Positions 17,227 through 35,751 of a stretch of 35,751 nt of DNA are shown here, one piece after another. Position 1 is the stretch's first letter. Every line of letters begins with the position of its first letter. The notes beneath the pieces were generated by a model. The model did not search any database. It saw only the letters and a program-made list of their open reading frames with translations, and was not told where the DNA came from. The stretch is from a bacterium. GTDB lineage: Bacteria; T1Sed10-126. Position numbers and translations under genes: made by a program. The stretch is from positions 1-35,751 of the forward strand of contig PWHN01000028.1 in NCBI GenBank assembly GCA_003554945.1, read 5' to 3'.

Positions 17227-18705
17227 TCATGGTTCCTCGACTTCAACGTCAACTTCACCAATCATTAAATCAATGACAAACTGGTTGAAATAAAAATCAA
17301 ACCAGCTTTTCATGAGTTCAATTTCAGCATTACTTTTTGCAATTTGAGCTTCAATAACTTCGAGAATAGTCACTTCGCCAAGCTCATCCCTGGTAAGAGT
17401 CAGATGTAGCTGTTCATCCCGATACTCAAGCTCTTCTATTTCGTTTATTATGTCTACGCGTTCACTGATCCAATCATAAAATAGTGACTCAAGATCTTCA
17501 ATTTCATTTTTTCGCGTCTCTTTTAGCTGATTTTTAGCCTCTGTTTTCATTGCTTCAGCCTGCCGGGTCTGTACTTCCAGAGAGTCTTCAGTTTGAACCG
17601 GATCACGAGCGCTGATGCGGTGAGTAATGTCCGGACGGTTGTCGAAGAATGTCATGGTGAACTCAGAGCTTTCAACATCATCATCATCGCGCTGATATGA
17701 TGATTGTACGGAGTGACCAAAGAAAAACATTTCCATGCTCAAACCAACGTAGTAGTCGTCCTCATCAGCTCCAAAAGGGTCGTCACCTCGAGCATCGTAA
17801 TCAACTTCCGCGGATAGGTCGGGAAGAAAATGAGCCTGTGCAAGAGCCACCCCTTCTTCAGCGTAAACCACTTCCTGTTCCTGCTGCCGAATCGAATAGG
17901 AGTGGTCCAGCAGTTGGGCACGCGACTGTTGGCGACGTTGGTCGGTAAGCTCTTCGGGGGGCTCCTGATCAGCGTCAAACTCCCCACGAGTAACAAAAAT
18001 AGAAGCTTCAAAGTCTCTATCCAGCACTCTATTAAGACGTATTCTGGCCTTTTGCAGTTCATTTAATGCCCGAGAATGGCGCCGATTAACTTCGTTTCTG
18101 CGCTGGCGTACTTCAAGTAATTCAACCCGTGTAAGTTCTCCAATTTCATATTTTTCACTGGCAACTCTGTAACTCTCCTCGACGCTGGTTCGAAGGGCTG
18201 ACTGTATTTCAGTTTCCATCTGAGCCTCAAGCAAATCGAAATACGCATTGGCCGCCCGCTCCAGAACTTCCGCAGCCCGCATACGATAGCCAAGGCGCGC
18301 GGCTTTAAGACTGGCCCTGGTCTGGTTCAGTCGGCCACCCAGACGACCACCGGACCAGAGTCGCTGAACCAACCGAGCGTTATAAGAGTGTTCGTAATGG
18401 TCGTCCTGTTCAATAAAAAGCCCATCGTGATGATCTTGTTGTTCCAGGGTTAGAGTCACCTCAGGAAAATATTCGCGAAGCGCGTCCTGGTAACGAGCCT
18501 CGTTCAACTCGATTTCGGCACGGCGGTTTTCCAGCTCGTCATCCACCTCAATTGCCCTGTAAAGCACCTGATCAAAATCAAAACGTGGCGGAGAATCTGC
18601 CCAAACCTCGCGGGCTGTCAAACAAGATAACACAATTACGAGGCTAAAAATCAACCCCAGTTGTAGATAGATTTTATTCTTCAAACTTTTTTTCAAGACG
18701 TACAA
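17227..18705 (-). CDS. TolC-like outer-membrane efflux channel
   Basis: The 492-residue protein has a signal peptide (KNKIYLQLGLIFSLVIVLSC, cleavage near VWA-DSPP) followed by two copies of the OEP pattern, with long helices such as 'QTRASLKAARLGYRMRAAEV' and 'VASEKYEIGELTRVELLEVR', and in the second half 'ELGEVTILEVIEAQ'. This is the TolC fold: a trimeric outer-membrane barrel with a periplasmic helical tunnel. The TTG start is supported by GGGAGGA 7 bases upstream, and the gene overlaps the end of the STAS/ATPase gene by 32 bases. An acidic insertion around residues 300-370 ('GDDPFGADEDDYYVG', 'QRDDDDVESSE') is unusual, and the C-terminus ends in an acidic tail. It lies directly before its adaptor and two RND pumps. 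Confidence 0.92.
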   Translation of the reverse strand: MYVLKKSLKNKIYLQLGLIFSLVIVLSCLTAREVWADSPPRFDFDQVLYRAIEVDDELENRRAEIELNEARYQDALREYFPEVTLTLEQQDHHDGLFIEQDDHYEHSYNARLVQRLWSGGRLGGRLNQTRASLKAARLGYRMRAAEVLERAANAYFDLLEAQMETEIQSALRTSVEESYRVASEKYEIGELTRVELLEVRQRRNEVNRRHSRALNELQKARIRLNRVLDRDFEASIFVTRGEFDADQEPPEELTDQRRQQSRAQLLDHSYSIRQQEQEVVYAEEGVALAQAHFLPDLSAEVDYDARGDDPFGADEDDYYVGLSMEMFFFGHSVQSSYQRDDDDVESSEFTMTFFDNRPDITHRISARDPVQTEDSLEVQTRQAEAMKTEAKNQLKETRKNEIEDLESLFYDWISERVDIINEIEELEYRDEQLHLTLTRDELGEVTILEVIEAQIAKSNAEIELMKSWFDFYFNQFVIDLMIGEVDVEVEEP

Positions 18706-19426
18706 GATTCTTTCCTCCCGGAGTCACTCGATATGAAAATTTATCCAACAGTTCGTTAATTAAATATAGTCCAAGTCCGCGTCTTTTGTTGTCCTCAAGA
18801 AATCTTTCCAGGTCGAAATCATGCTCATCTGGGTTAAACTGTTCTCCCTCGTCATTTAAGTAGATTATCAGTCCATTTTTAAATATACAAAGATTGAGTT
18901 CAATTGTCTCATCAGAATTAAATTTGAGACCGTGCTCAATAATATTGCTCAATGTTTCATCCAGTGAAGTAACTACCTGATGGATTTCGTTTTTATTGCT
19001 GCTATATTTTTGTAGTAAATTCCTTACTTTTTTACGCGTGGGTTCTAAAGACCCGGGTGATGCATCAACGGTAAGTTGTATGTTTTCTTGTTCCTCCCGA
19101 AAAACGGGTGCTTTGACAATTGTAAAAAGTTCGTCAAAACCCAACAATTTTAGAGTATCATTAACCTCTTCCTTTAAGTTGGCGAGAACAATATTTTTAT
19201 CGCTCGAGCACTTGCTTATAAGCAACCCCATGCCGGCGCTGTTAATATAATCGAGCTCACTACACTCAAAAATAACGTCTTCCTCACCAAAAAAATTCTC
19301 TATCTCTCTTTCAAAGATTTCAAAGTTTTCAGTGTCTATTTCACCTGAGAGAAAACCCAGTTTATGATTTTCATATCCACCGATTAAACAGTCGTCACAA
19401 ACTTTAACTATTTGTCCTTCAGCCAT
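18674..19426 (-). CDS. STAS domain fused to RsbW-type serine kinase/anti-sigma ATPase
   Basis: The 250-residue protein joins two normally separate partner-switching proteins. Residues about 5-105 are a STAS (anti-sigma antagonist, SpoIIAA/RsbV-like) domain with the phospho-acceptor motif YINSAGMGLLI (Ser63). Residues about 115-250 are a GHKL ATPase of RsbW/SpoIIAB type: N-box SLDETLSNIIEHG, LNDEGEQFNP and the glycine box RGLGLYLI. I chose ATG 19426, with AGGTG 8 bases upstream; the GTG at 19435 is too close to that site. It overlaps the phosphatase gene by 8 bases and the TolC-like gene by 32. A CxxC pair (CDDC) sits near the N-terminus. In known systems the kinase phosphorylates the STAS serine and a PP2C phosphatase reverses it, deciding whether a sigma factor or other target is held. 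The final target is unknown; no sigma factor gene is in the window. Confidence 0.9.
   Translation of the reverse strand: MAEGQIVKVCDDCLIGGYENHKLGFLSGEIDTENFEIFEREIENFFGEEDVIFECSELDYINSAGMGLLISKCSSDKNIVLANLKEEVNDTLKLLGFDELFTIVKAPVFREEQENIQLTVDASPGSLEPTRKKVRNLLQKYSSNKNEIHQVVTSLDETLSNIIEHGLKFNSDETIELNLCIFKNGLIIYLNDEGEQFNPDEHDFDLERFLEDNKRRGLGLYLINELLDKFSYRVTPGGKNLVRLEKKFEE
18713..18719 (-). promoter_or_regulatory. Ribosome binding site supporting the TTG start of the TolC-like gene
   Basis: GGGAGGA on the minus strand, 7 bases before TTG 18705, lies inside the upstream coding region. It explains why a 32-base overlap is real and not an annotation artefact. Confidence 0.65.
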
Positions 19427-20855
19427 TGGTTTCACACCTGCTAAGTGCCAGCAGAACTACGTCATCCTGGACACGAGTTTTATCTGACCTAGAAAATATT
19501 TCATCCAGCAGTAGCTCCGGTGACCTACTGTAGTTCAAAATCAACTCTTCAAGCCCTTCCCGCCCAAGTCGGTCACTATCCTCTAAAATCATTTCACTAA
19601 CACCATCACTGTATTGATAAATATAGTCACCACGATGTAATTGCAGAGTCTCCAATTCGGTCCGCTCTAAGAACTCAGACCGGCGCTGAACTCCCAGGGC
19701 CACACCGGAGGGTTGGTGGGAGACAACCTCTTCACTCTCAGAATGATAATAAAGCAGGGGATTGTGCCCACAGCGAACATAATCAAGTATACCGGTCTTT
19801 AAGTCGATAATTCCTGCAAATAGACTTACAAAAGAACTGGGTTGAAAATTTTCTACTATTAAAGTGTTAAGTTCGGCGACTTTTTCCAGAAGCTGATTTG
19901 GTCCTACTGATTGATCCAGGAACAGAGCTCGCAGAGAAGCAAGTGTATTGGTCATCAGCAGCGCGGCGGGAACCCCTTTCCCAGATACATCGGCTACAAA
20001 GACATAAAGTTTACCATCTTTTCGGAAAAAATCGTAGAGATCACCCCCAACTTGAAGTGAAGATTCATACTCTATCTCCAGATTATAACCGGATATTTCA
20101 GGAGTTCGTTCAGGTAACAGAGTATGCTGGATTTGCCGGCCCAATCTCAACTCATTTTCAAGTCTCTGTTTTTCAACAAGTTCCTTGCGGTCCTCTTCGA
20201 TACGCCTGCTCATGTGATTTATCGACTCGGCAAGGCTCCCCAGTTCATCTCTTCTGTCAAGATTAATCTGATGACCATAATTTCCGGCTGCAATTTCCTC
20301 CACCGACTCTCCCAGACGTTCAATGGGCCTGGTCAAAATACCGGACAGAACGCCGGCGCCGAGCAAGCCACCGGCCAGTATTAACAGGGTGGCTTCCATC
20401 ATTCGCGCCCGAACTCCCCGGATTGCACTGTTTACCATTTCTTGATCTATCCTCACGGCAGCCTGGTATTCTCCATATCCGGGCAACTGAACCTCGCGTT
20501 TGAGCAGTAACGCATCTTCTACCGGCGGCAGTTCACTGCCAATATACCGAGGTTCGTTATGGGCCAGAACTTGACCGGCTGCTGTGAGAACATAAACCTC
20601 TTCAATACCGGCATCCGGGCGATGGGCCGCTTCAACGGCATTGATTATGAACAAATCATCTCCGGTCTGTATTCCCCGACGCACACTTTCAGCAAGCTGA
20701 CTGAGTAAAATTTCCCCGGTATCCTGGAGCTGCGAACGAACATAATTTTCCTGATAACGAAGGACAAGATAGCCCGCAGCAATCATTATAATCAGGATGA
20801 ATCCTGAAATTATAACGCTAAACTTCAAATAAAGTCCTAATCCTTTTTTCTGCAT
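19419..20855 (-). CDS. Membrane-bound RsbU/SpoIIE-type PP2C serine phosphatase with HAMP
   Basis: The product of about 478 residues has TM1 (FSVIISGFILIIMIAAGYLV), an external sensor region of about 120 residues with a PAS/Cache-like feel ('EEVYVLTAAGQVLAHNEPRY'), TM2 (TLLILAGGLLGAGVLSGIL), a HAMP domain, a coiled-coil linker (RLENELRLGRQIQHTLLP) and a SpoIIE phosphatase domain. Metal-binding motifs are present: VGGDLYDFF, DVSGKGVPAALLM, GHNPLL, YSDGVSE and DDVVLLAL. The second ATG (20855) is preferred because AGGAG is directly next to the first (20861) but 6 bases from the second. It follows the barrel gene by about 20 bases and overlaps the STAS/ATPase gene, its evident substrate, by 8. It should sense an envelope or extracellular cue and dephosphorylate the STAS domain. 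Confidence 0.93.
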   Translation of the reverse strand: MQKKGLGLYLKFSVIISGFILIIMIAAGYLVLRYQENYVRSQLQDTGEILLSQLAESVRRGIQTGDDLFIINAVEAAHRPDAGIEEVYVLTAAGQVLAHNEPRYIGSELPPVEDALLLKREVQLPGYGEYQAAVRIDQEMVNSAIRGVRARMMEATLLILAGGLLGAGVLSGILTRPIERLGESVEEIAAGNYGHQINLDRRDELGSLAESINHMSRRIEEDRKELVEKQRLENELRLGRQIQHTLLPERTPEISGYNLEIEYESSLQVGGDLYDFFRKDGKLYVFVADVSGKGVPAALLMTNTLASLRALFLDQSVGPNQLLEKVAELNTLIVENFQPSSFVSLFAGIIDLKTGILDYVRCGHNPLLYYHSESEEVVSHQPSGVALGVQRRSEFLERTELETLQLHRGDYIYQYSDGVSEMILEDSDRLGREGLEELILNYSRSPELLLDEIFSRSDKTRVQDDVVLLALSRCETNG

Positions 20856-20874
20856 CGTCATCTCCTGGTATATA

Positions 20875-22512
20875 TCAGTAGTCCATCAACTGCTGCACGC
20901 GTTCCAGAGCCTGTTCCGCCCTGTCATGGTCGGAATCCAACTCAAGAGTATTTTCAAAATATTGTTCAGCCGTCTCGTAATTACCACTGGTAAACTCTAT
21001 TAACCCCTGCTGGTATTCCTCCTCGGCTTCACGTTCTCGCACACCCAGGGCGGCCAGAGCGTTATCCAATTGTTCTTCCAATCTCAGTGTTTGAGGATCA
21101 TCAGGATCGATGTCAAGCGCCTGATTTATAAGTTCTGCAGCCCTTGAATAATTTCCATCGTTAAGATTTATCATAGCTTGCTGACGCAGTTCCGGAAGCA
21201 GCTCAGTTTCATCCGCCATTTCGGCTTCATCTGCAGTTTCCGCGCCTTCAGCCCAGTGAAAAATCGCTCCATCAAGCCCCGCATTCTCACTGCCCACTCC
21301 CCGACCTACCTGTCCGGCTTGAACACCGGCCAGATCAGGAGTAAAAGTTTCCCCGTCCACATCGCTAAATTCAGGTTCAAACGGAAGATCCGGGGTCGGG
21401 AAGGGACGGATGTCACGTTCCTCCAGTTCAGGAGTTACAGGATCAAACCCAGGGTCAACGTCATCAAACGCTATTTCCGGTAAATGGGGCATTGTGTGAC
21501 GAACGCCACGAAAGATTTCGGCGGGTTCTTCTTCAGGTTCGTATTTTACATCCCAGCGATAAGTTATAGAGAACTGATCAACCATGTCCAGCTCATCGTG
21601 ATCAAAAATACTGTAATCAAACTTGAGATGGTCACCGGCAATTAACGAGGCACCGGCTGTTAAATTGTTATCACGCATACCGGCTCGAACACTCAAAGTA
21701 CGACGGAAAGGCCAGTCGCGCGCGTCAAGAAACTCCATGCCATAAAAATACCGCTCGTCCCGATCGTCCTGAAATTCGACATCCCCGGCCAGGCGTATCC
21801 GATCGCCCCATAGCCAGAATGAAGTACCAACCCGATACAACCGGGGAACTTCATCCACTGAAGACGAAAATGATGGCTGCACCACATTGAAAACATTCAC
21901 ACCCAGACGCCAGTAGTCAAGTGGCTGGTAAAAGAGAGAGGCATCAAGTCCAAAGTCGCTTTCCCTGTGGTCGGAACGCCCGGGGGTGGGATCATCAATT
22001 CCCTGGTCAAAATAGTTAGCCGTCAGGCCAAGCGAAAAGTTTTCTAACGGCCTGTAAGCACCTGAAACGGCCAGCGCTTGTTCGGCCATGTCAAAGCTGG
22101 AAGTAGGATCACCATCCGCGTCGCGTCCGTCAAAATCTTCGGACCCCAGACGCAGATAGTTAAAACCAAGACTAAACCTATCGTCTAAGTTCCAGACACC
22201 GGTTAATGTTCCGTGATAGGTATCCACCCAGAGTTCCTGGTATGAACCACTTATAGCCGAGTAACCAATGAAGGGCATGGCCGCCGGGTTCCAGTAAGCA
22301 GTGGAAACGTCGTCTCCCATACCGACCGCGGCCTGACCCATACCCTCGGTATGAACACCGACACCAAAGTCGTAAAGCTGACCAAGCTGACCGGCGTCGC
22401 CGGAGTACACCCTACCGGCAGAAAAAACAATTGCCGCACAGACGACCAGCGAAATTAGAGCTTTAAGATATATACGCCAATCGCCCAAATAGAGCAGGTT
22501 GCTTAATTTCAT
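20875..22512 (-). CDS. PorV/PorQ-like outer-membrane barrel with C-terminal TPRs
   Basis: The product of about 545 residues has three parts. A signal peptide (ALISLVVCAAIVFSAGRVYS) leads to a FadL/PorV-PorQ/UPF0164-like barrel of about 300 residues. It carries the family's opening theme of an aromatic GARxxGMGxA-like motif, here 'HTEGMGQAAVGMGDDVST' and 'AYWNPAAMP', and alternating strands such as 'DRFSLGFNYLRLGSEDF'. A Pro/Asp-rich linker of about 110 residues follows, then two TPR units ('NYSRAAELINQALDIDPDD', 'NYETAEQYFENTLELDSDHD'). I chose ATG 22512: AAGGGA (22522-22527) lies 9 bases before it but touches ATG 22521. In T9SS, PorV carries substrates at the outer membrane; here the genes just upstream encode two proteins with sorting-type C-termini. 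The TPR fusion is not typical of PorV. Confidence 0.8.
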   Translation of the reverse strand: MKLSNLLYLGDWRIYLKALISLVVCAAIVFSAGRVYSGDAGQLGQLYDFGVGVHTEGMGQAAVGMGDDVSTAYWNPAAMPFIGYSAISGSYQELWVDTYHGTLTGVWNLDDRFSLGFNYLRLGSEDFDGRDADGDPTSSFDMAEQALAVSGAYRPLENFSLGLTANYFDQGIDDPTPGRSDHRESDFGLDASLFYQPLDYWRLGVNVFNVVQPSFSSSVDEVPRLYRVGTSFWLWGDRIRLAGDVEFQDDRDERYFYGMEFLDARDWPFRRTLSVRAGMRDNNLTAGASLIAGDHLKFDYSIFDHDELDMVDQFSITYRWDVKYEPEEEPAEIFRGVRHTMPHLPEIAFDDVDPGFDPVTPELEERDIRPFPTPDLPFEPEFSDVDGETFTPDLAGVQAGQVGRGVGSENAGLDGAIFHWAEGAETADEAEMADETELLPELRQQAMINLNDGNYSRAAELINQALDIDPDDPQTLRLEEQLDNALAALGVREREAEEEYQQGLIEFTSGNYETAEQYFENTLELDSDHDRAEQALERVQQLMDY

Positions 22513-22517
22513 AGGAA

Positions 22518-25500
22518 TCATTCCCTTATCACGGCAATTTTAGTTTTTTCTTGCACAGAATCTGAGTCGTCACCTTGTGCTTCCAGAACAACTATGTAAC
22601 CGCCGGAAGAAACGCTATCAAATCGCTCGTTTCTTCCATCCCAGCTTATATTAGTTATTCGTCCTGAAGACGGCAAACCCTCCGGAATATCTATCTCGCG
22701 CACAAGTTCTCCGGTTAAAGAATAGATTGTAATAGTCGCCGGTTCTCCCGGCTGACCAACAGGTTGGTCGCCGTTACTGCTTTCACCGACAGAAAATTTT
22801 AACTCATCGTCACGTTCCGGCCGGTAAGGATTCGGATAGACAAAAAAGTCGTCAACATACTGTTCTGAAGCCATCTCGCCGCCTCTACGTAAATTTTGAA
22901 CCTCCACTGCTCCATCACTGTTAGTCACTTGAGATTCTTTACGGCCAATCTCGACAATATCAACAAGTGAATCCCCTTCCAACCCGGTCGTATCAGCAAG
23001 TGAACTTCCCACCACTTCAAAACCGGGATTATCGGTATAACGAAGGTGTAGAGTGTCACTTGCTTCAACTCCCTGGTAACGAATCAAGAGTTCACTTGGC
23101 TCATCTTCAGAAATATCCTCCACCTGCTCTTGAATAATTCCAGTATCCATCGGGTTAAACAAAAACAGATGCTCGAGTTCATCCCGATTATAGTCAGAAG
23201 CTCTCTTTGCAATTTGATAATGAAAACCCTCGGGCAGTTCCCGTCGTTCTAAATATTCTAATGTATACTCAACGCTCCCCCGTTCAGGATCAGCAAGATC
23301 TTCAAACCCTTCGTGGGCCGTCAATACATAAGTATCCCCCAGCACTTGTTGATTTTTGAGATCAACTATTGAGACAGAAAGATCCATATCGGTTCTATCC
23401 AACCGACCGGGCGCTCCTGCAGGAGCAAAAGCAAGTTCACCGTTTTCGCTTTCTCCCAGGACAAGACTTTTGTTAAAATCAGTGTTCTTCAGGTCAAGCT
23501 TCACATCCGGATAGCCATACACTTCAGCCTCGCCACCTCCGAGTGAAAGAGTGTCACTAACCAATTCTCCACTACCGGCGGAGTAACCGTAAACTTGGGC
23601 ACCAAATTCAATAACAGTGCCCGGTTCCAGGTCATCAGGAATATCAACTTTAAGCTCTTTTCTTTCGTAAGTCCCACCTCGAACCGAGTGAACAGTGTCA
23701 GAAATTCTCTGCGATTCAAACACTTTCCCCACGTTTTTACCTTCGCCCTGGTCAATAGTCAGAACGGGGGTGTCAAACCTGGTATAAAAATCATTCGCAC
23801 CGGCATTCTCAAGATAAACCCCTACTTCCACTGCCTCCTGGCCCACGGTCACTGCGTCCTGTACATCGAGCGATAAACCCATCTGGGCTCGACCAAAATC
23901 AGGTTGTTCCGGATCTGTAAGACGTTCAATTATTATAGTCTCCAGTGCCGTGTTTCCCAATTTATCTTCCAGGGCTATTCGAAAGTAGTGAAGTTCAGGG
24001 TATATGTCCATGTCTTCGTCATCCAGCAGAAAAGTTACGGTTCCCGGCTCAAGCCGATTATCCTTCTCCATCAACCGCGGACTTTCACAACTTCCATCAC
24101 GGCGGCAATCCATAAGCTGCAAGTTTTCAACGTTTTCTTTTAACTCTAAATGTATCTCAAACACGCCACCGTAAGTTCGATTAACCCGGCCGATTATATC
24201 GGCTCCCCCGGCACCATATATGTCAAACTCCGGTGGAGATGCATCAGTCACAAATTCAAATTCGTCTAACTTTCTGTTAGTCAATGGATCCATGAAAACA
24301 AACCCGTATCTCTCTCCAATTTGCGGGTGAAAGCGAAAGGTTTCCCCCTGGGCACGCTCCCAGTCACGGACTACTTTTTCCTCCTCCAGGTCCAACTGAA
24401 GAACTTCTATGTCATAATCCTTTCGCAGCCCCTCAAGCACCGGATGAGTATCATAAAACTCTTCCTCAATCATATATTTTACAGCCGGGTGATATTCGTT
24501 CGTGAGTATACGGCCATCTTCCTGAACTATTCCCGGCCAGTACGGATCATCTTCAACTCGCCGCACCCCCGGCGCACGGTCATCACGAACGGTAACGATA
24601 CGCCTAGTACTTATCGGATCAGCGTCGTTTTTAATAACTTCGGTGTCCTCGTAAAGATCAAAATAGACATCGTCGGTTTCATCACCATCGGGAACTGTAA
24701 TCAACAGTCTGATTTCTTCTTCCTCTTCTTCTTTTAGCTCTCCAATTGACGCTGTATCTGATACTATTTGACCTTGTTCATTGCTCCACCTTACTTTAAG
24801 ACCAAATGTATCTTCTTGTAGGTCTCCAACCGCAATTGGAACTGCAATTACATCTGTCTCTGGCTTATTAGTTTTAATAAATTCTTTATTTTCGTCTTCG
24901 TCCGGTTCAAATTCAATTACTTTCCAGTCAGCTTTATCTGGATATCTGGGGGCGGGAATGTAGTCCAAAATTTCAACATTGGGGTTAACCTCCTCAATAT
25001 AGACGACCCGGTCGACGGAAACTGTCTCCCCAACTGCATTACGAGCCTTGACTTCAAATCTGTATTGAGTGTCTCCAAGGTGATCCAGACTAAAGTTACT
25101 GTTGAAACTCAACTGCCTTTCCCCGACATTAAGCCAGCCATAACCATAATTTATTGCTTCAATCTTTAAAGCATCAGTCACCTCGCCTTCAACTTCTGGG
25201 ACTGCAGCTCTATCAGGAAATACTGAACCAGAAGCAGGGGTGTCTACAGTCAATTCAGGCGAACTGCTTGATTGTCCGAAAACAACTGTTTCAGAGTTGG
25301 TGTTCCCGAGGACATCCCGGCCGGTCACAAGAACTTTATTATAAGTGTCGGTATCCAGCTCTATTTCAGTTTCAAAGGGGCCTGAGTCATTACTTAACAC
25401 CTGTTCTCCGGCTACGGTTACTTCATCGAAGATCCCATTTTCACCGCTCCGATCGACTTCTGGATCGTATGCACTTACCTGGCCGCCAACAGTTACTTTT

Positions 25501-26282
25501 GTATCACCGGTATAATCACCGGCAAAAAGGTTTTCTTCATACGATATTTCGGACGAGGGTTCATCGACCTTAATCAGCGGTCCCTCAGTCCGCAAGTATA
25601 TTTCAACAGTGTATTGAGCCGTGTTACCGGCTCTGTCGCCGGCTAAAATTAACAGCTCGTTTCCTTCCTGGGAAAGGGAGACCGAGTCAGTTTCAAAAAC
25701 TTCCTCTTCGGGATTATACTCAAGCAGCTCAGTGTCATAAGTTCGTCCATTTACCAGTATTACCGTATCTCCATTCTCCACATCAACTTTTATCTTAATT
25801 TCTTCGTCAGCAGTAACGGTATCATAATCTAGATCAATAACCTCACCGCCAACCGCGGTCTCCATTTCAGGAGTAACCTCATGAATAACAGGATCTATGG
25901 AGTCATGGTAAATAGTTATAGTGGCAGTATCCTGTTTCTGCTCATATTGTACAGTAAGATCAAATGTCCGGCTGTCCTCAAGAACCAGGGAATCAGCAGC
26001 CACCGTACCCTCTATCTCTGCTTTCGTATCAGTACCGGAGAGGCGAGCTGGATACGTATCCCCGACAGATATTTCTCCCCCGATGTCAATATCGTCCACG
26101 CTGGTATCCTCTGTCAGCTCTCTAACAACGGCTGTTACCTGGACATCGTTGTGAGCGTTAGTGTCATAACGGGCGCCGGGGTCCACGATTTCCAGCTCCA
26201 GGGCGTAGACAGTCGACGGTGCCAGCAGAACCAGAAGCACTGACAAAATAAAAACCATTCGAGAAAAAACTTTATTATCCAT
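22518..26282 (-). CDS. Secreted Ig-repeat protein with FlgD-like/sorting-type C-terminal domain
   Basis: The 1254-residue protein begins with a clear signal peptide (FSRMVFILSVLLVLLAPSTV, cleavage near VYA-LELE). The N-terminal half is a series of bacterial Ig-like units of the glucodextranase-B kind, each ending in a strand such as 'LLILAGDRAGNTAQYTVEI' or 'VLVTGRDVLGNTNSETVVF'. The middle has further beta-rich units without a family I can name. The last 110 residues form a FlgD-like Ig domain: YPNPYRPERDDELKF, ITIYSLTGELV, ISWDGRN, SSGGYIVVL and the end KTKIAVIRE. This C-terminus closely parallels that of the giant protein upstream. Such domains resemble the type A sorting/C-terminal domains of secreted proteins. 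The start ATG 26282 is 2 bases after the giant's stop and overlaps none of it. A surface location is likely; ligand unknown. Confidence 0.88.
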   Translation of the reverse strand: MDNKVFSRMVFILSVLLVLLAPSTVYALELEIVDPGARYDTNAHNDVQVTAVVRELTEDTSVDDIDIGGEISVGDTYPARLSGTDTKAEIEGTVAADSLVLEDSRTFDLTVQYEQKQDTATITIYHDSIDPVIHEVTPEMETAVGGEVIDLDYDTVTADEEIKIKVDVENGDTVILVNGRTYDTELLEYNPEEEVFETDSVSLSQEGNELLILAGDRAGNTAQYTVEIYLRTEGPLIKVDEPSSEISYEENLFAGDYTGDTKVTVGGQVSAYDPEVDRSGENGIFDEVTVAGEQVLSNDSGPFETEIELDTDTYNKVLVTGRDVLGNTNSETVVFGQSSSSPELTVDTPASGSVFPDRAAVPEVEGEVTDALKIEAINYGYGWLNVGERQLSFNSNFSLDHLGDTQYRFEVKARNAVGETVSVDRVVYIEEVNPNVEILDYIPAPRYPDKADWKVIEFEPDEDENKEFIKTNKPETDVIAVPIAVGDLQEDTFGLKVRWSNEQGQIVSDTASIGELKEEEEEEIRLLITVPDGDETDDVYFDLYEDTEVIKNDADPISTRRIVTVRDDRAPGVRRVEDDPYWPGIVQEDGRILTNEYHPAVKYMIEEEFYDTHPVLEGLRKDYDIEVLQLDLEEEKVVRDWERAQGETFRFHPQIGERYGFVFMDPLTNRKLDEFEFVTDASPPEFDIYGAGGADIIGRVNRTYGGVFEIHLELKENVENLQLMDCRRDGSCESPRLMEKDNRLEPGTVTFLLDDEDMDIYPELHYFRIALEDKLGNTALETIIIERLTDPEQPDFGRAQMGLSLDVQDAVTVGQEAVEVGVYLENAGANDFYTRFDTPVLTIDQGEGKNVGKVFESQRISDTVHSVRGGTYERKELKVDIPDDLEPGTVIEFGAQVYGYSAGSGELVSDTLSLGGGEAEVYGYPDVKLDLKNTDFNKSLVLGESENGELAFAPAGAPGRLDRTDMDLSVSIVDLKNQQVLGDTYVLTAHEGFEDLADPERGSVEYTLEYLERRELPEGFHYQIAKRASDYNRDELEHLFLFNPMDTGIIQEQVEDISEDEPSELLIRYQGVEASDTLHLRYTDNPGFEVVGSSLADTTGLEGDSLVDIVEIGRKESQVTNSDGAVEVQNLRRGGEMASEQYVDDFFVYPNPYRPERDDELKFSVGESSNGDQPVGQPGEPATITIYSLTGELVREIDIPEGLPSSGRITNISWDGRNERFDSVSSGGYIVVLEAQGDDSDSVQEKTKIAVIRE
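22522..22527 (-). promoter_or_regulatory. Ribosome site embedded in the final IRE codons of the 1254-residue gene
   Basis: AAGGGA lies in the last codons (ATA AGG GAA TGA) of the upstream gene and sits 9 bases before ATG 22512. The same arrangement (AAGGGAG at 26288-26294, 5 bases before ATG 26282) couples the giant gene to the 1254-residue gene. Confidence 0.65.
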
Positions 26283-26284
26283 AA

Positions 26285-29200
26285 TTACTCCCTTATGATA
26301 GCGATTTTACCTGTTTCCACGTGCTGTTCATCGTCTCCATCGGCCACTACTCTATAAACATATCCACCCGAAGCAACCGGGCGACCTCGATCGTTTACAG
26401 CCTCCCAGACAAAATTATCTGACTGCCAGGTACTGTTATTATTTATTTCTTCCTGGTCCGAATATACCAGTTCACCGGTCAGGGTATAAATTTCCAACTC
26501 AACCTCACCAGTCGCTTTTTCTCCCAGTTCAAGTCCGATCTTAACTTCTTCATCTCGATCAGGGCGAGCGGGGTTGGGCCAGGCGACCGCTTTGTCAATT
26601 CCAAAGTCAGCAACCACCTCAAATCCGGCAATACGTCCCACTCCGGCAACATCGTCGTCTTCAAGTTCATCCGGCGGCCGGCTATCAACGGGAAATTCAC
26701 CGGATCCCGGCACTTCGACAAGCACAACAGCATCAATTATAATGATCCCCAGTGGGACATCTTCATCTACATCAACACTATATTCAATTACTCCCCGTCC
26801 CGGGCTACCATCTTCATAAGGAGGAATACCCTCTGTCATTGAAACACGATCATATTCAAAATAATCACTCACTGTGTCACCCAGGTCATTGTGGAGGAAA
26901 ACAAGTTCATCTACTCCCCGGGGATAAATCGGCGAGGTGTCATAATTTTCAATTTCAAACAGAAGCGAATGATTCTTTTCACCTCTTTCGACTAATAATG
27001 ATTCAACCCTGAATGTAGCTTCCACGGAGGGCCGGCTACGTGTTTCAACGGGGAATTGACCTGCTTCGGCTTCTGCTTCACCCCAGTCCTCCATCAACTC
27101 CGGCTCTCCACCGAATTCAATCCAGTACCTCCGAAAACTCTGATGGTCGGCAAGCGGAAATGCATCAATTGTCGCGGTATCACCCGTTGATCGACCTTCC
27201 GCCGTTTCATAGCCAGCAAGTGAAAACTTCAGCCAGGCCAGTAACGGTTCATCGTTTAACTCCCCCGACAGGGTAAATCTCGCTTCTTCCCTTCCCTCTA
27301 TCTCTTCTGTAGCTTGAGTAAATTCAAATTCCCCGATTTCATCCTCAATTGTACTGCTATCAAGGGGCTCCTCGGGAGAATCTGGCCAGTAAAAATTAAT
27401 TACTTCACCCGCCGGTCTTTCTATAACATGAGGCCAGAGTTTAACGGGAGAATGCCCCTTATTTTCCACGGTAAATTCAACCTCAAAATCGTCCGTCCCT
27501 TCCACGGGGCGGGGTGGATATTCGAAACTGGTTATTTCCAGTTCACCAAAACTTTTATAATAAATATCCACACTTTCCTCGGTTTTATTGCCAGCTACCG
27601 TTTCAACTTCAAAATCCAATCCTACACGTTCTCCCTCTTCAAAATCATCAAATTCAAAAGCCAGGGTACCACCCGCAGTTAAGGAAAATTTATCCCGCCC
27701 GACCTGTACTTCTGGAATATCAGTGTCCGTCTCAACAAGGACGGTCACCGGCTTGGAGTCGGCAAAATAATCGCCGTCAACTTTTTCCAACTCAGCGCCT
27801 TCAGGACCAAAAACAGTTACATCAAGCGAAGCCGTGTCATCCGTATATTCAAATGTAACAGTATCGTGGGCTTTGTTCCCCCAGTAATCGCCTGCTGTTA
27901 GAACAACATCCTGAACAACATATTCAAGCTCGACGCTCGTATCAAACTCAAAATAACCATTCTCCCGAATCCCAGGAACCCGGCTGCCCTCAACTTCAAA
28001 CCAGACAGTATCTCCCGACGGTTTATAAACTTCAGCCCGTAAATCCGGATTTTCGTCGCCCACACGGGCCCAATGTGTTTCGGGTTCAAGTAAAACAATC
28101 TCCGGCTCCGAAGTATCAAACTCAAATTCCCGAGTGGTTGGTGAAAAACTGCGTCCACCATAATAGGGTCTGATTTTTACTTCAACTGTATCGCCGGACT
28201 TTTCTCTAAGATCAAACTTAAAAAGTTCCATAAAAGTAGTATCTCCCTCTGTCATAAAAACCGTTTCTCTCCTTACATCCTCGGGAACGGCCGGACCAAC
28301 CATTTCTAAGGCCAAAGTGTCCGCCGGGTATCCCTTCACAGCACCACCCAGGTAAAATTCATCTGTCCCAACAATATCAACCGCCGGAGTATCAAAACTA
28401 ACTTCAGGCACTTCATCACTAATTCTAACCCGGAGATCGACTCGACGCTCATGGCCATATTCACCAGTAACATAAATATAAACCCGGTTTAGGGACCGGC
28501 CTCGCCTTAGTGATATTTCTTGATTAATAGCAGTGTCCGCGATTACGGCCACGGTTTCGCCATGAGTTCTATTATCAATCTCAATCTCAGCCCGTCGACT
28601 GGTTTTAAGAGTCAACTCAAGAGAATCGCGTTCCAATATCTCGACTTCAGGTTCTTCTGGATCAGTGTCAAAGTCCAGCACATCTTCAACATCCAGCTCA
28701 AGGTCCGGAGCCTCTTCGTAATAAGTTACCGTTCTGCTATCCCGGGCAGTGTTAGTGGCTGTATCATAAACCTCAGTCATCAACACGTTCTTCCCCGGGT
28801 CGAGCTCAATATCCCGCGCAAAAGTGTCATCGCCCAGCTCAGGAGCCGAAATAGGCGAGTGAGGCTCACCGTTCACAGCTACTGTCCCACCGACAGCACC
28901 TTCCGCAGACGCAATCAACTCAACCTGTCCGACACCGGTGGAAAGACCATCTTCGGGAGCAAGCACTTCCAGTTCCGGGGGCTCATCGTCATAAATCACG
29001 GTCAATCCCAGAGCGTCAGTATCTCCCGCCTCATCTTCAGCCAGCAGTTCAAATTCGTTTTCTCCCCGGTTAAGATCACGAGTTAAAGTGAAAGCGCCGC
29101 TGGATTCCAGACTTTCAATTACGTCTTCACCATTCATCTCAAACCGCTCAACAGGTGTCACCTTTGTCTCGACGTTTCCGGAAAAAACAACCGTGTCCTG

Positions 29201-32200
29201 GTTAGTATGATAGCCGGCCTCAGGTTGTTCCAATATTATTTGTGGTTCATAGGGATCATATATAACTTTGGCTTCAGTATCATTGTAAATTCCCCTGACA
29301 GGGTCCTCTATACGGAGAGGAATTCGGTTAGTACCGGTATCAAGGTCAACTGTGCTAACAAAGGAATCATTTTCTTGTTCAACTGCCCCGGTGTCACCAT
29401 CGACATAAACCTCATAAATCCTTCTGGAAACAACAATTATTTCGATTTCTGAGTCGGATACAATTTCACCATAATTGGGACTAATTAGTTCATAAGATAG
29501 TTCAACCCCGACCTCTACTTGCCGGGTTATAGAGTCAGATATGGTTTCACCGTCTTTTTCCAGTTCGGCGGTCACCTCGAGCTCATACTCGCCTGCCTCA
29601 GAATAATCCCGAACAGTAGCAAACGTGTCGGACTGCTCTGCCTCCCGTATAATCTCCCCGTCCAGGCGGATTTCTGCGCTGCTATCGGCAGTCCCCCGAA
29701 CGGGTACCTGCAGGCCACCGGTCTCATACCCGTCCTCAGGTTCCGCCAGGCTCAGATCAAGATCACCCAGGATGACTCGAACTTCTTCGCTTCTGGCAAC
29801 TACTTCAGTTTCACCTTCTTCGCTATGCTTGTATTTAACTTCGAATACATTCTCCCCCTCCAGCAGTTCCACTTCACGCTGATAGAGGGTATCGCTCTCG
29901 GCGCTCATTTCCCAATCTGAATCCCCCCGAATTAATTTAACAGCGGTATCCCCGGCAAGATGTTCATCCTCAGTTACTGACGCCTCAACAAGTGCCATTG
30001 AATCCGCTGTCAGGTCACCATCTCCCGGACGTAAAATTTCCACCCGTGGACCGGTATCCCAGTATTCGACCTCAACTGTGTCTGAAAACGACTCATTACC
30101 CGCCCTGTCAGCAAGTTTTATTCTCAAAGGTGTAACCCCGGTATCAAGACGGATCGTATACTCGTTGCCTTCGCCCACTTCAAGCTGATCCAGGCTTTCT
30201 CGGCTCTCTCCAGCATAAATTCTACCGCTTTCAAGTGGCACTGCACCGGTATCTCCAATCTCATACACGACCTCGAGACGCCCGTCGTCAAGACTATCCC
30301 CGGTGTCAGGATATGTTATGTCCACCGGCGCTGCGGCCGTATCATACCGCACTTCAATAGCTTCGGTCCCCGTCCCGATTGAAGTTGCAACCCTCGCCTT
30401 CAGCTCAAAAATTCCCGTGTCGGCCAGACCGACGACAGTGTCAAAACTGTAATCGTCTACAGCCATTTCTGTACTTAATTCACCGTCCAGCAATATTTCA
30501 AGCTCATTAACCCAGGGGGAGCGGTATGTACCTGCCACCGGCACCTCCGGCAGGCGGGTATCGTAAGGCGAAGCGGGAGAATCTATCTCAATAAACGGCT
30601 CAAAATTACCGCTGATTTCTACAGGTTTTGTGTCGTAATTACCAAATTTATCTTCACCGCTAAATATAACAGTGTTAGTATCACTGAATATTTCCAGGTT
30701 CTTTTCAAATCGCCAGTCAGCTTCTACTTCCAGTTCTATTTCTTCCACTGTGTCACCAGTTTCGCCGCCCAATAGAGAAATAGAGTAAGTGTCGTCCACT
30801 GTTGTGTCCGCAACCGCTCCGGCAATATCAATTGGTGTGGTGTCGTATTCATCCTCAACGTCAAGCTCAAAGCTCGGCGGATAATCCTTGTAGTAGACCT
30901 GGACAGTATCAGCAGTGTCGTTGCCCGCTTCATCAACTGCCGTCACCACAAAAGTATTTGCCCTGGACTCTAATTTCACCTCATTCAACTCGAATTCAAA
31001 GCGTTCAATTTCTGTATCTTCGTTATTAGCTGTCCAGTTAGTATCAAAATTATCATCGTTGGGATAAAAAGTCGTGTCAGCGTTATGCTTTATCCACATT
31101 GTATCTGGTATTTCTTCAGCTTCACCGGCCAGATTTATCAGCTCCTCGCCGGTGTCAATATCTTCTTCAGGAGAAGTAAAGGAGATACCGGCGGCAACCG
31201 TATCGGCAAATATAGTTATCGTGTCACTGGCCATATTACCGGCTGAGTCGTAGACCCGTGCTTCAATTACGTTAGTATCCGCTCCCAGGTGAACTGTATC
31301 CTGCAGAGTAGTGTCAAAAACAGTAGCAATATCAAAAGTATCTGAGACCGTCGTATCCAGGCTGTCGTCAAGATTCTGGTCAACCCCAAACTCATACCTC
31401 TCGATCCCAATTTCAGTATCGGCCGCTTCTACTTCAAGCAGCGGGTTAACCACATTAGTTGTAATACCATCTTCCGGCGCAGTTATTTGAACGCTGGGTT
31501 CAGTGTCGTTGTAGAAGAGGTGAGCAGTATCATAGCCCACGTTCCCATAAATATCTTCCGCACGGCCGACCACCACCGCCGAATCTGGCTCAGTCATTAT
31601 CGTTACCTGCCCCCACCATCGATAAGGCTCCCAGTCTGAAACTTCTCCCTTATAGTCCCACTCCACGTCTCGTTCAATACGATCTCGGTCGCCATCTTCA
31701 ATTTGAAAACCTTCAACGTGGTCAGGGAAAATTTCTTGTAGATCTTCAAAACGGTCAGGTAACAGATCAAGGCCTTCGGCTTCAAACTCAACTTCAACCC
31801 CCCGTTCGTTATAGTAACCCACAGTGTCTGGGTCAATAAATCGCACCTCGGGCGGCGTAGTATCGTAATTCACAACCTTAGAATCAGCAAACAGCTCTCC
31901 TTTTATCATCTTTTCAACAGTGAAAATATTACGGGTATCACTTACCGGTGCCTCCACTTCAAAGTCATTACCGTCCTTCTCAAAATTCACCTGGTCAGTT
32001 AAGTTCTCGTCGTCTCGATAGAGAGTAAGCTCAGAAAATTCGTCTTCCGGTTCAGTTCTTGTATCTCCCTGCACTCCTTTCAGGGTTACGTATTCTTCGT
32101 TCAGGTAAGCTTCGCCATCACGTTCTAATTCAGGTTTGTAAAGATCAATTTCAGGTTCATAGAGAATTTCCACCGATGCTGAGTCGGAGACACCGTAGGG

Positions 32201-35200
32201 CGTAGTATCATAAGCGACAACCTTATTTTCTCCAGGATATAGACCAATTGAAGCCTGAAAATAGCCGTCCTCGTCGGACCATACTGTTGCGCTGTCTAAA
32301 CCGTCATCGTGGTAATGACGTAGCTCCTGTGCTGGACCATGACGGGCTTCAAAGTCCGGAATATTATGGTAATTAGTGGTACGGAACTCAGTATAAAAAC
32401 TCGGATGTTCAACTTCGGTATCACCCTCCGGCCAGATCAGCTCCACTTCAGGTGCTGTTGTATTCTTCTTCACCCTTAAATTATCACTGCGGGTATTGCC
32501 TAACTGATCTTCGACTTCGACATAGATATCAAATTCCTCGTCCTCAAGCGGTATCTCCACTTCCGTATCAAAAGTAGCACGGGTATCGTATTCATCCCCA
32601 GTCAGCTCTAACTCTCTACGCGACTGTTCACCACCGTCATACCAGAGAAAAATTTCTCCTATTTCAGGTTCTCCGCGATCTACTTCAACCTGGCCGGCAA
32701 GACTAATCTTCTCAACTGAAGTATCCACCCGTCCATCGTGTGGTTCGTTGGGTACCGGGGTGTCAATTGAAACACTGGGATCGCTCAGAGGTTCTACCAC
32801 TTCAAATATACCGCTTGTATCAGCCCGGATGTTACCGGCCTTATCCACCAGCTCCACCTCAACATAAGCAGTGTCGGTGCGATTTGCGCCTGTGTATGCC
32901 GGGTCTGCCAGCTGGGGAACCGTCCACCGTTTCTCCCCCTCATCTTCAGTATCACTGGCTATCTCAATTTCGTTCCACCCACTTTCTTCACTACCAGCGT
33001 AATAGTCGTAAAAACTAATACTGATCGGCTCCGTTGCCAGCCCGAGCTCATCGTGAGCTTCCCACTCTATGTCCTGACTCCGCTCAAGCTCCCATATATC
33101 CCCCTCAGAAGGATCAGTCACTTCCAGCTCCGGCTTGTCGGAGTCAATAGTGAACTCTTCTGAAACAACTTTTGTATCGTTGCCGGCAGTATCCGCAGCA
33201 ACAACCCGCAGAGCCACCCCGTCACTGGAAACATCATCGGGGAGCTCCCAGTCGTAGCTTCCCGTGTTATCGATATTAGTTTCCAGCTCAACCCAGTCTG
33301 CGGTCGAATCTGGTCGGAAATCGAGACTGATCGGCTGAGTATCAAGCCCGAAACTGTCGCTGGCCTCCCACTCAACAGTTTCCAGCTCGCCGCCGCGCCA
33401 GTGAGAGCCGGCACCAGGACGTATTATTTCCACTTCCGGATCCTCGCTGTCTATAGTAAAGTCTTCACTTTCGTCAGTGACAATTTCTTCACCGGAATAA
33501 AGCAGCAACTGAACACGCGCCTCCTGCGTATGATCGGACGGGAGCTCCCAGCTTTCCAGAGCTACTTCCCCGGACTCTCCGGCGTCAATTCCATCTATTT
33601 CCTCGATAGGTTCAAATCCAGCACCGTCGGCGGCATACTCGGCTACGAGGGTATCACCCGATTCAATACCACTTGGTTGCCATTCAATTGATTTTTCGCT
33701 TCCACCGGCCCATATTTCTCCACCGGTAGGCGAAATCAGTTCCACCGCCAGCTCACGAATTTCAAACTCGCCGCTGTAATGCTCCTGACTCTGCCCGGCG
33801 CGGTCGTAAGCAGTTATCCTTAGCTGGGCGGCATCAACTTCAGTATCCGGCGGAGCATCAACATACCAGTCGAAGTGACGTTCATCACCCTCCTGTTCAC
33901 CAATTCCCACAAAATCCTGGTCTTCGTCAGCATATTCAATCACAAAACTGTCATACCCGGAGGCTCCGGGGTCAAACTCACTCCACCTCACAACGTGCGT
34001 ATCCCAGAGGGCGACAAGATCGCCCGCTTCCGGATCGTCAATTTCTATCTCAGGTTCACGATCATCTATCGCAAACTTAGCACTGACTGTGTCGCCTACA
34101 ATTCCGGCTTTATCCTCGGCTTCAACTCGCACCTGTACTTCGTCACTATTAATCTCGGGCAGATCCCAGTTATACTCGGTTTCCTCTATTTCGGCTTCGA
34201 CCAGGGTCCACTCGGAGTCTACTTCGGGACGATAGTAGAGCGAGTATGGCTGATCAATTAGATCAGCGTGACCGCTTTCTTCCGGATAATACTTCCAATT
34301 TACCGTTTCCAAGGCCCCCGCAACCCAGGCGGTGTCACCGTCCGGTTCGATTACTTCTACAACCGGCGCGGTGGAGTCAACAATAAAGTCTCCCGTGTAG
34401 GCGGTGCTGTCATTGCCTACCCGGTCACGGGCAGTAACTCTTATTTCCGCCTCCTCAGTATTATCAGCGGGAACATCCCAGGTGTAGCTGGTCCTCTCCA
34501 TATCTTCAGTTTCCTCGAGCAGTTCCTCCCAGACTCCATCTTCGCCACGGTATTCAACTGCGAAAGAATCATACTCGGAATAGCCGGCATCGGGCGCCTG
34601 CCAGATGATCTCATAAGTTGTCTCTCCCTGCACATTTTCTTCGGCTTCCGGCGCTATAACCTCAATTTCAGGCTCGCTGGAATCGACAATAAAATCTTCA
34701 CTTGCTGAGTCATTTTCATTGCCGGCACGGTCAATCGCCGTCACGCGGATTCGCGCTTCGTCCGAATTCTCAGGCGGAATCTGCCAGAGATAATCCCTAT
34801 CTTCACCTTCCACAGCTGCTATTTCATGCCATTGCGCTCCTCCGTCAAAAGACTCCGTCAATACAAAGGTATCATACCCTGATAACCCTGGCTCGTCAGC
34901 CGTCCAGACTATTTCATACTCATCATTCCCCCGCATCCTGGTATCTCCAACCGGGCGCTCCAGCTCTACTGCCGGTTCTTCGTTATCAACTATGAGCGCC
35001 TTTTCTTCGTCATAAGTTGTACTGTTACCCACCTGGTTTACAACCTCTAACTCGAGATCATACTCACCACTGTCCATATTTTCCACCACTTCCAGTTCTT
35101 TCTCCACGGGCTCAACCGCTTCCTCCAGCTCGTAACTGTATATTTTTTCCTCGCCCTCATAAACGTTCAGGGCTGCCGTTTCAAAGTAATCATCATTAGC

Positions 35201-35751
35201 CTGGTGGTCAATTACAAAATCATGTCCCGTCTGTTTGTAAGCCGGATCACCGTCTTCTGGAGAATAAATTACCGCTGTAGGAGCATCATCATGAACTATT
35301 AGGGCGTTCAATTCGATATCTTCCCCCACGTTCTCAGCCAGGTCATAACCACGAACTGTTACATCGTAACGGCCGTCCGCCGTCGACGCTGGCACCGTAA
35401 CAATTTTTTCTTCAATCTCGCCGTCGGTATTCTCGACTTCCTCGGTAAATATTTCTTCACCATTTTCGACAAGCAACTCTGCCGTATCAAAATAATCATC
35501 ATCAAGACTATATTCAATTACAAAGGTGTCTTCACTTTCCAGTATTACTGTATCACTCTCAAGCGGTCTATGTATCTCCGCTTCAGCAAACTCATCCTCC
35601 ACACGCAGTCCAGAGGACTCCACCGGCTCGCTTTCGTTTCCTGCATAATCTACTGCCTCCACCCGCACGTCGTAGTAACCGTCCGCCGTCGACTCCGGCA
35701 CTTCCACAATCTCTATCTCTTCGCTACCCTCAGCCAGCTCCTCCCTAATTA
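26285..35751 (-). CDS. Giant Ig-repeat surface protein, N-terminus beyond the window
   Basis: The frame is open from its stop (26285) to the window edge, so at least 3154 residues are encoded and the true start is outside. The GTG at 35707 lies inside a repeat (VPESTADGYYDV, compare VPASTADGRYDV later) and is not a start. Order from the N-terminal side: three related units with 'STADGxYDV'; seven units of about 104 residues (about 34975-32800) with 'W...G....I.W.A', a central 'W.LP..NS.EA.+RV.A.D.AGN' and 'DFxIDS'; a long array of glucodextranase-B-like Ig units (about 32780-27540); an 'FTVENKGHSPVKL' CARDB-like region; and a C-terminal FlgD-like domain (WPNPARPDRDEEVK, EIYTLTGELV, VASGGYVYRV, GKIAIIRE). 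About a quarter of residues are acidic and Asp-Thr pairs are very frequent. It is likely an adhesin or stalk-like cell-surface protein; no enzyme domain was seen. Confidence 0.88.
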   Translation of the reverse strand, partial: IREELAEGSEEIEIVEVPESTADGYYDVRVEAVDYAGNESEPVESSGLRVEDEFAEAEIHRPLESDTVILESEDTFVIEYSLDDDYFDTAELLVENGEEIFTEEVENTDGEIEEKIVTVPASTADGRYDVTVRGYDLAENVGEDIELNALIVHDDAPTAVIYSPEDGDPAYKQTGHDFVIDHQANDDYFETAALNVYEGEEKIYSYELEEAVEPVEKELEVVENMDSGEYDLELEVVNQVGNSTTYDEEKALIVDNEEPAVELERPVGDTRMRGNDEYEIVWTADEPGLSGYDTFVLTESFDGGAQWHEIAAVEGEDRDYLWQIPPENSDEARIRVTAIDRAGNENDSASEDFIVDSSEPEIEVIAPEAEENVQGETTYEIIWQAPDAGYSEYDSFAVEYRGEDGVWEELLEETEDMERTSYTWDVPADNTEEAEIRVTARDRVGNDSTAYTGDFIVDSTAPVVEVIEPDGDTAWVAGALETVNWKYYPEESGHADLIDQPYSLYYRPEVDSEWTLVEAEIEETEYNWDLPEINSDEVQVRVEAEDKAGIVGDTVSAKFAIDDREPEIEIDDPEAGDLVALWDTHVVRWSEFDPGASGYDSFVIEYADEDQDFVGIGEQEGDERHFDWYVDAPPDTEVDAAQLRITAYDRAGQSQEHYSGEFEIRELAVELISPTGGEIWAGGSEKSIEWQPSGIESGDTLVAEYAADGAGFEPIEEIDGIDAGESGEVALESWELPSDHTQEARVQLLLYSGEEIVTDESEDFTIDSEDPEVEIIRPGAGSHWRGGELETVEWEASDSFGLDTQPISLDFRPDSTADWVELETNIDNTGSYDWELPDDVSSDGVALRVVAADTAGNDTKVVSEEFTIDSDKPELEVTDPSEGDIWELERSQDIEWEAHDELGLATEPISISFYDYYAGSEESGWNEIEIASDTEDEGEKRWTVPQLADPAYTGANRTDTAYVEVELVDKAGNIRADTSGIFEVVEPLSDPSVSIDTPVPNEPHDGRVDTSVEKISLAGQVEVDRGEPEIGEIFLWYDGGEQSRRELELTGDEYDTRATFDTEVEIPLEDEEFDIYVEVEDQLGNTRSDNLRVKKNTTAPEVELIWPEGDTEVEHPSFYTEFRTTNYHNIPDFEARHGPAQELRHYHDDGLDSATVWSDEDGYFQASIGLYPGENKVVAYDTTPYGVSDSASVEILYEPEIDLYKPELERDGEAYLNEEYVTLKGVQGDTRTEPEDEFSELTLYRDDENLTDQVNFEKDGNDFEVEAPVSDTRNIFTVEKMIKGELFADSKVVNYDTTPPEVRFIDPDTVGYYNERGVEVEFEAEGLDLLPDRFEDLQEIFPDHVEGFQIEDGDRDRIERDVEWDYKGEVSDWEPYRWWGQVTIMTEPDSAVVVGRAEDIYGNVGYDTAHLFYNDTEPSVQITAPEDGITTNVVNPLLEVEAADTEIGIERYEFGVDQNLDDSLDTTVSDTFDIATVFDTTLQDTVHLGADTNVIEARVYDSAGNMASDTITIFADTVAAGISFTSPEEDIDTGEELINLAGEAEEIPDTMWIKHNADTTFYPNDDNFDTNWTANNEDTEIERFEFELNEVKLESRANTFVVTAVDEAGNDTADTVQVYYKDYPPSFELDVEDEYDTTPIDIAGAVADTTVDDTYSISLLGGETGDTVEEIELEVEADWRFEKNLEIFSDTNTVIFSGEDKFGNYDTKPVEISGNFEPFIEIDSPASPYDTRLPEVPVAGTYRSPWVNELEILLDGELSTEMAVDDYSFDTVVGLADTGIFELKARVATSIGTGTEAIEVRYDTAAAPVDITYPDTGDSLDDGRLEVVYEIGDTGAVPLESGRIYAGESRESLDQLEVGEGNEYTIRLDTGVTPLRIKLADRAGNESFSDTVEVEYWDTGPRVEILRPGDGDLTADSMALVEASVTEDEHLAGDTAVKLIRGDSDWEMSAESDTLYQREVELLEGENVFEVKYKHSEEGETEVVARSEEVRVILGDLDLSLAEPEDGYETGGLQVPVRGTADSSAEIRLDGEIIREAEQSDTFATVRDYSEAGEYELEVTAELEKDGETISDSITRQVEVGVELSYELISPNYGEIVSDSEIEIIVVSRRIYEVYVDGDTGAVEQENDSFVSTVDLDTGTNRIPLRIEDPVRGIYNDTEAKVIYDPYEPQIILEQPEAGYHTNQDTVVFSGNVETKVTPVERFEMNGEDVIESLESSGAFTLTRDLNRGENEFELLAEDEAGDTDALGLTVIYDDEPPELEVLAPEDGLSTGVGQVELIASAEGAVGGTVAVNGEPHSPISAPELGDDTFARDIELDPGKNVLMTEVYDTATNTARDSRTVTYYEEAPDLELDVEDVLDFDTDPEEPEVEILERDSLELTLKTSRRAEIEIDNRTHGETVAVIADTAINQEISLRRGRSLNRVYIYVTGEYGHERRVDLRVRISDEVPEVSFDTPAVDIVGTDEFYLGGAVKGYPADTLALEMVGPAVPEDVRRETVFMTEGDTTFMELFKFDLREKSGDTVEVKIRPYYGGRSFSPTTREFEFDTSEPEIVLLEPETHWARVGDENPDLRAEVYKPSGDTVWFEVEGSRVPGIRENGYFEFDTSVELEYVVQDVVLTAGDYWGNKAHDTVTFEYTDDTASLDVTVFGPEGAELEKVDGDYFADSKPVTVLVETDTDIPEVQVGRDKFSLTAGGTLAFEFDDFEEGERVGLDFEVETVAGNKTEESVDIYYKSFGELEITSFEYPPRPVEGTDDFEVEFTVENKGHSPVKLWPHVIERPAGEVINFYWPDSPEEPLDSSTIEDEIGEFEFTQATEEIEGREEARFTLSGELNDEPLLAWLKFSLAGYETAEGRSTGDTATIDAFPLADHQSFRRYWIEFGGEPELMEDWGEAEAEAGQFPVETRSRPSVEATFRVESLLVERGEKNHSLLFEIENYDTSPIYPRGVDELVFLHNDLGDTVSDYFEYDRVSMTEGIPPYEDGSPGRGVIEYSVDVDEDVPLGIIIIDAVVLVEVPGSGEFPVDSRPPDELEDDDVAGVGRIAGFEVVADFGIDKAVAWPNPARPDRDEEVKIGLELGEKATGEVELEIYTLTGELVYSDQEEINNNSTWQSDNFVWEAVNDRGRPVASGGYVYRVVADGDDEQHVETGKIAIIRE

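Follow-up and report, generated by a model that had tools for sequence, protein, structure and literature searches.

Type A-like sorting-domain proteins paired with PorV-family barrels suggest cargo-carrier cassettes in a divergent form of type IX secretion

In the type IX secretion system (T9SS) of F. johnsoniae, PorV associates with SprA, binds the C-terminal domain (CTD) of the cargo in the pore through its loops, and then departs with the cargo. A single PorV serves all type A CTDs in this organism, and type B cargo has carriers of its own. Retention of CTDs on their cognate barrels is already documented (PMC10202324, PMC9143113, PMC12618676): PorU on PorV, PorZ on PorQ and type B cargo on PorP/SprF each keep the CTD, and the protein stays on its barrel. 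In Bacteroidota, own-barrel carriage is known as a feature of type B cargo (PorP/SprF) and not of type A cargo in general. According to the literature, T9SS genes do not occur beyond the FCB group, the one around Fibrobacterota, Chlorobiota and Bacteroidota, and a literature search of partial coverage returned no published description of cargo-specific PorV barrels. Here, type A-like CTDs with apparently private PorV-family barrels are described in a lineage placed apart from Bacteroidota.

The window, the 35,751-nucleotide stretch of DNA analyzed, is one complete contig (G000:C108) of the genome under study (G000; 2.2 Mb, 121 contigs, 93.5% complete). Apart from one family member, the relatives with which this genome was compared share only the domain with it, which supports its placement apart from Bacteroidota and agrees with the original prediction, made from the window sequence, that the organism does not resemble Bacteroidetes. 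Three real open reading frames run in the same direction on the minus strand. They encode a giant surface protein, whose gene has lost its 5' end (start) at the contig end, a second surface protein of 1254 residues, and a barrel whose gene start overlaps the stop of the 1254-residue cargo gene by 4 nt. These and the adjoining features are:

26285–35749, minus strand: giant surface protein, at least 3154 aa, with Ig-like repeats (Big_13, Glucodextran_B, Kre9_KNH)
26288–26623, minus strand: T9SS type A-like CTD of the giant protein, a seven-strand sandwich
22518–26282, minus strand: 1254-aa surface protein with a Sec-type signal peptide and the same CTD as the giant protein
22521–22850, minus strand: T9SS type A-like CTD of the 1254-aa protein
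20875–22521, minus strand: PorV-family outer-membrane barrel of 14 strands (548 aa in all), joined by a disordered linker to a C-terminal TPR domain
19419–20861, minus strand: HAMP-SpoIIE phosphatase, 13 nt after the barrel gene
18674–19435, minus strand: STAS and HATPase anti-sigma-type protein, its gene overlapping the phosphatase gene

The phosphatase and the STAS-HATPase fusion (window positions 18674–20861) constitute a partner-switching module, possibly co-transcribed with the surface-protein cassette. Neither SprA nor PorU is encoded within the window, as the original prediction had stated.

The two surface proteins had been predicted to end in the same kind of domain. Their last ~110 residues are indeed 39% identical over 108 aligned residues (E 2e-19). 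A whole-genome search with a profile built from barrel-adjacent tails recovered 11 strong tails and one weak tail, so the domain is strongly shared by nine further proteins of the genome. The cargo types that bear it are diverse and include two subtilases, an LRR/GLUG protein, Ig giants, carboxypeptidase-regulatory-like proteins and InlB-repeat proteins. Taken singly, the window tails fall under the curated Pfam and NCBIfam cut-offs, and one other tail protein (L124) barely reaches that of Pfam Por_Secre_tail. In the alignment of the 11 strong tails, all from this one genome, the T9SS type A model TIGR04183 matches every member, mostly below its cut-off, the PorU and PorZ models match eight members each, and the type B sorting domain (TIGR04131) matches one weakly. 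Compared against the PDB, the tail profile found PorU (6za2, 1.2e-7) and PorZ (5m11, 9.5e-7), with weak matches to 8glj and 8glk, which are cargo CTDs within the F. johnsoniae translocon. The predicted fold is a seven-strand sandwich. PorU (Z 13.1) and PorZ (Z 11.0) are its best structural matches, and the CTDs of mirolase (Z 9.8, 1.6 Å) and NucA (Z 9.2, 1.9 Å) are also matched. As a family, the tails are T9SS type A-like sorting domains akin to the CTDs of PorU and PorZ, and the sorting-domain assignment originally made for the two window proteins stands.

The third gene had been read as a PorV/PorQ-like barrel, and Pfam and NCBIfam likewise place its product near PorV/PorQ. It scores 78 bits against the PorV_fam model (NF033709), below the cut-off of 90. 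A profile of ten barrels from the genome matches PorV at 3.8e-34 and the FadL-type transporter TodX at only 3e-5. In the structural model, the 14-strand barrel is connected through a disordered linker to a well-folded TPR domain, a unit that the original prediction did not mention; such TPR tails occur on at least three of the 11 barrels of the genome. PorV from the substrate-bound translocon is the best structural match. Fold comparison by itself does not separate PorV (Z 30.7) from FadL (Z 30.3); the sequence decides for PorV, and identification as a FadL transporter was rejected. The barrel is a PorV-family member, nearer PorV than FadL by sequence.

Pairing of the two gene types extends well beyond the window. 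Eleven clear PorV-family barrels are encoded in the genome, ten over the PorV_fam cut-off and the window barrel just under it. All but one (10 of 11) immediately follow a same-strand gene for a tail-ending protein, usually with a 4-nt overlap, and the eleventh follows one of the ten paired barrels. All 11 strong tails sit in barrel clusters, with only the giant protein lying one gene further off. The chance of such pairing under random gene order is ~3e-25, with 2000 genes assumed. The cargo-and-carrier arrangement of the original prediction is supported; what had been missed is that pairing is the rule in this genome and recurs across lineages. The near-universal pairing suggests that each surface protein brings its own dedicated carrier or anchor rather than sharing one.

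The cassette recurs in the sister genus of the same family (G001) and in at least ten other lineages. In the sister genus, seven of the eight barrel genes immediately follow a CTD gene (~2e-13 under random order), and most of these pairs overlap slightly. The tail profile finds 44 CTDs there, mostly unpaired, about 37 of them without an adjoining barrel. The profile is therefore not blind to unpaired tails, and carriers cannot all be private in this genus. Across seven other lineages, 29 barrel loci could be assessed, and 19 of them have a tail-protein gene directly upstream. The top-scoring barrel in two lineages with a C25 protease comes directly after a C25 protein bearing the CTD, as in porU-porV, and the cassette thus looks like a generalised porU-porV pair. 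In a single-protein scan, two named Elusimicrobia MAG loci (L044 and L045) showed a CTD protein followed by a PorV-like barrel. The review consulted on T9SS distribution lists no such genes for this phylum.

Tail and barrel are co-inherited as a pair. Over 43 cassettes, the Mantel correlation between tail and barrel distances was 0.50 (rho), versus 0.31 for pairs shuffled within genomes (p 0.0005; p 0.03 for G000 alone). Separately built tail and barrel trees recover several common clades. In one of these, ten cassettes from G000 and G001 group together (support 97/99 for tails and 99/92 for barrels); another has seven members across six lineages (98/94 for barrels and 98/75 for tails). Linked duplication can account for part of this co-inheritance, for which binding specificity is not required.

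A genome-wide search for further T9SS parts, as proposed with the original prediction, recovered a SprA N-terminus and was negative for PorU, GldL and GldM. The SprA_N and TIGR04189 models gave no match in G000. SprA of the sister genus, itself in two large pieces at contig ends, was used as a query and found G000:C25:3-359, an SprA N-terminus of about 120 aa with 52% identity that runs off its contig. This suggests that SprA is present in G000 but incompletely assembled, and a SprA-free system was rejected. Peptidase_C25 (PF01364, PorU) was detected in neither G000 nor G001, which are 91–94% complete with gaps that could hide the gene, and was found in six of the eight other genomes compared. 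Searches for GldM and GldL (PF12081, TIGR03513) returned nothing convincing in G000, G001 or eight other SprA-positive genomes, possibly reflecting models that are too narrow. Matches to GldL at E 0.02–0.09 were discarded, since the same search also matches in five control genomes without T9SS. As these models fail even in strong-SprA genomes, the ten genomes appear to use another motor, or one too divergent for the GldL/GldM models. A 908-aa TPR protein encoded near a cassette was considered as PorW/SprE and not accepted (65 bits versus a cut-off of 250, with better matches to other TPR models). Since these searches detected neither PorU nor the GldL/GldM motor, the machine of G000 looks like a variant.

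We interpret the three genes as a cargo-carrier cassette of a diverged T9SS, with exit through SprA followed by uptake and probable uncleaved hold by its own PorV-type barrel, and assign this reading a probability of about 0.66. The two large proteins would enter the periplasm through Sec, and we infer that their CTDs are then presented at the SprA pore. The PorV-family barrel encoded by the adjoining gene would take up the CTD, presumably with specificity for its own partner, and leave the translocon with the cargo attached. Because no PorU was found, the CTD is probably not cut off, and the cargo would remain at the cell surface, attached to the barrel with which it is encoded. We expect the barrel's TPR tail to lie on the periplasmic side, where it may link the complex to the envelope in the way that PorE links PorP.

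This arrangement shares with the T9SS of P. gingivalis and F. johnsoniae a homologous CTD fold and barrel, a CTD-protein gene followed by a PorV-family gene, and probably SprA, seen in G000 as an N-terminal fragment. It differs in providing nearly one PorV-family barrel per CTD protein, where those systems use one PorV for all type A cargo, and in that PorU/C25, GldL and GldM were not found. Type B CTDs with PorP/SprF (SprB-SprF; PMC12618676, PMC9143113) show the same gene order, with the cargo gene directly followed by that of its own barrel. There, cargo is held on the barrel, as we propose here, and PorE-like proteins are encoded beside some pairs, whereas the present cassettes combine a type A-like CTD with a PorV/PorQ-family barrel and carry the TPR fused to some barrels. 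PorZ-PorQ (PMC10202324) likewise has an uncleaved CTD bound to a PorV-like barrel, but it is a single dedicated component of the attachment complex and not a general scheme for surface proteins. Since the CTD is retained on the barrel in type B/PorP-SprF, PorU-PorV and PorZ-PorQ, the simplest reading is that the type A-like cargo here would be held in the same way. The paired gene order provides ready sets of matched and mismatched CTDs and barrels for testing carrier specificity. A broader generalization would be a type IX pathway without PorU, GldL or GldM, perhaps driven by an ExbB-ExbD-TonB set like the one near one of the cassettes, that is found in many phyla and uses an own PorV-type barrel as lifelong carrier and anchor, with the one-PorV-for-all arrangement of Bacteroidota being derived. 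We regard this as speculative and doubtful.

Gene order of this kind could also arise in an ordinary T9SS in which the barrels are redundant PorV paralogues that accept any type A cargo, the pairing being a relic of porU-porV followed by tandem duplication. Sharing is established for the PorV of F. johnsoniae, would accommodate the 44 CTD proteins that face about eight barrels in the sister genus, and agrees with the position of the top-scoring barrel directly after the CTD-bearing C25 protein in two PorU-bearing lineages. Redundant carriers are harder to reconcile with an order kept across lineages and many unrelated cargos (two subtilases, LRR, Ig giants), with the matched CTD and barrel clades, or with nearly one barrel per CTD in G000, and we consider this explanation unlikely. 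The barrels might instead be immobile anchors only, each catching its cargo once that has been exported, either through SprA with a single general carrier or along a different route. Envelope attachment is suggested by the TPR tails on at least three of 11 barrels, and the searches of G000 and G001 for a CTD-cutting PorU, which found none, also fit an anchor. However, the nearest relative of known structure, PorV, acts as a carrier that docks on SprA, and no other outer-membrane exporter was identified, making a purely anchoring role quite improbable.

An interpretation that dispenses with type IX export would treat the tails as FlgD-type Ig domains with a structural capping role, and the barrels as FadL-like transporters whose only tie to the surface proteins is a common operon. 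PF13860 (FlgD_ig) is the top single Pfam match for several tails, and on fold alone the barrel model is matched nearly as closely by FadL structures as by PorV. Nevertheless, the tails resemble PorU, PorZ and T9SS cargo CTDs more closely than they do FlgD, the barrel profile separates PorV from TodX by the wide interval given above, and SprA sequence is found, in pieces, in both G000 and G001. Strict pairing would also be left unexplained. This interpretation is disfavoured and, in our judgement, very improbable; the cargo-carrier cassette remains the preferred reading.

Several further loci of these genomes were recorded. The twelfth, weak CTD of G000 lies on contig C36 (L128/L136 kind), lacks the PNP motif and ends in (K)xFPVMVVK. 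In the sister genus, a related divergent CTD without the motif is followed by a 489-aa PorV-like barrel, but the 0.6 kb that remain to the end of C36 hold none, and the locus was not accepted as a further cassette. On contig C102, the region L123 1035–4297 (about 85034–88296) comprises a second PorV-family barrel without a CTD protein of its own and the genes that follow it. A DUF559 endonuclease-like gene (L123 4294–4641), probably an insertion, separates the two PorV-family barrels of this contig. After the second barrel come, in the same direction, genes for ExbB, ExbD, a TonB_C protein and a 908-aa TPR/YbgF-like protein; this ExbB-ExbD-TonB set could power the secretion route or could belong to a Tol/TonB operon with no connection to it. 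Contig C99 (L127 4875–8486) encodes two tandem proteins of ~550 aa with a weak PorV-like N-terminal motif and no adjoining CTD protein, and a similar weak match is present in G001 (L138).
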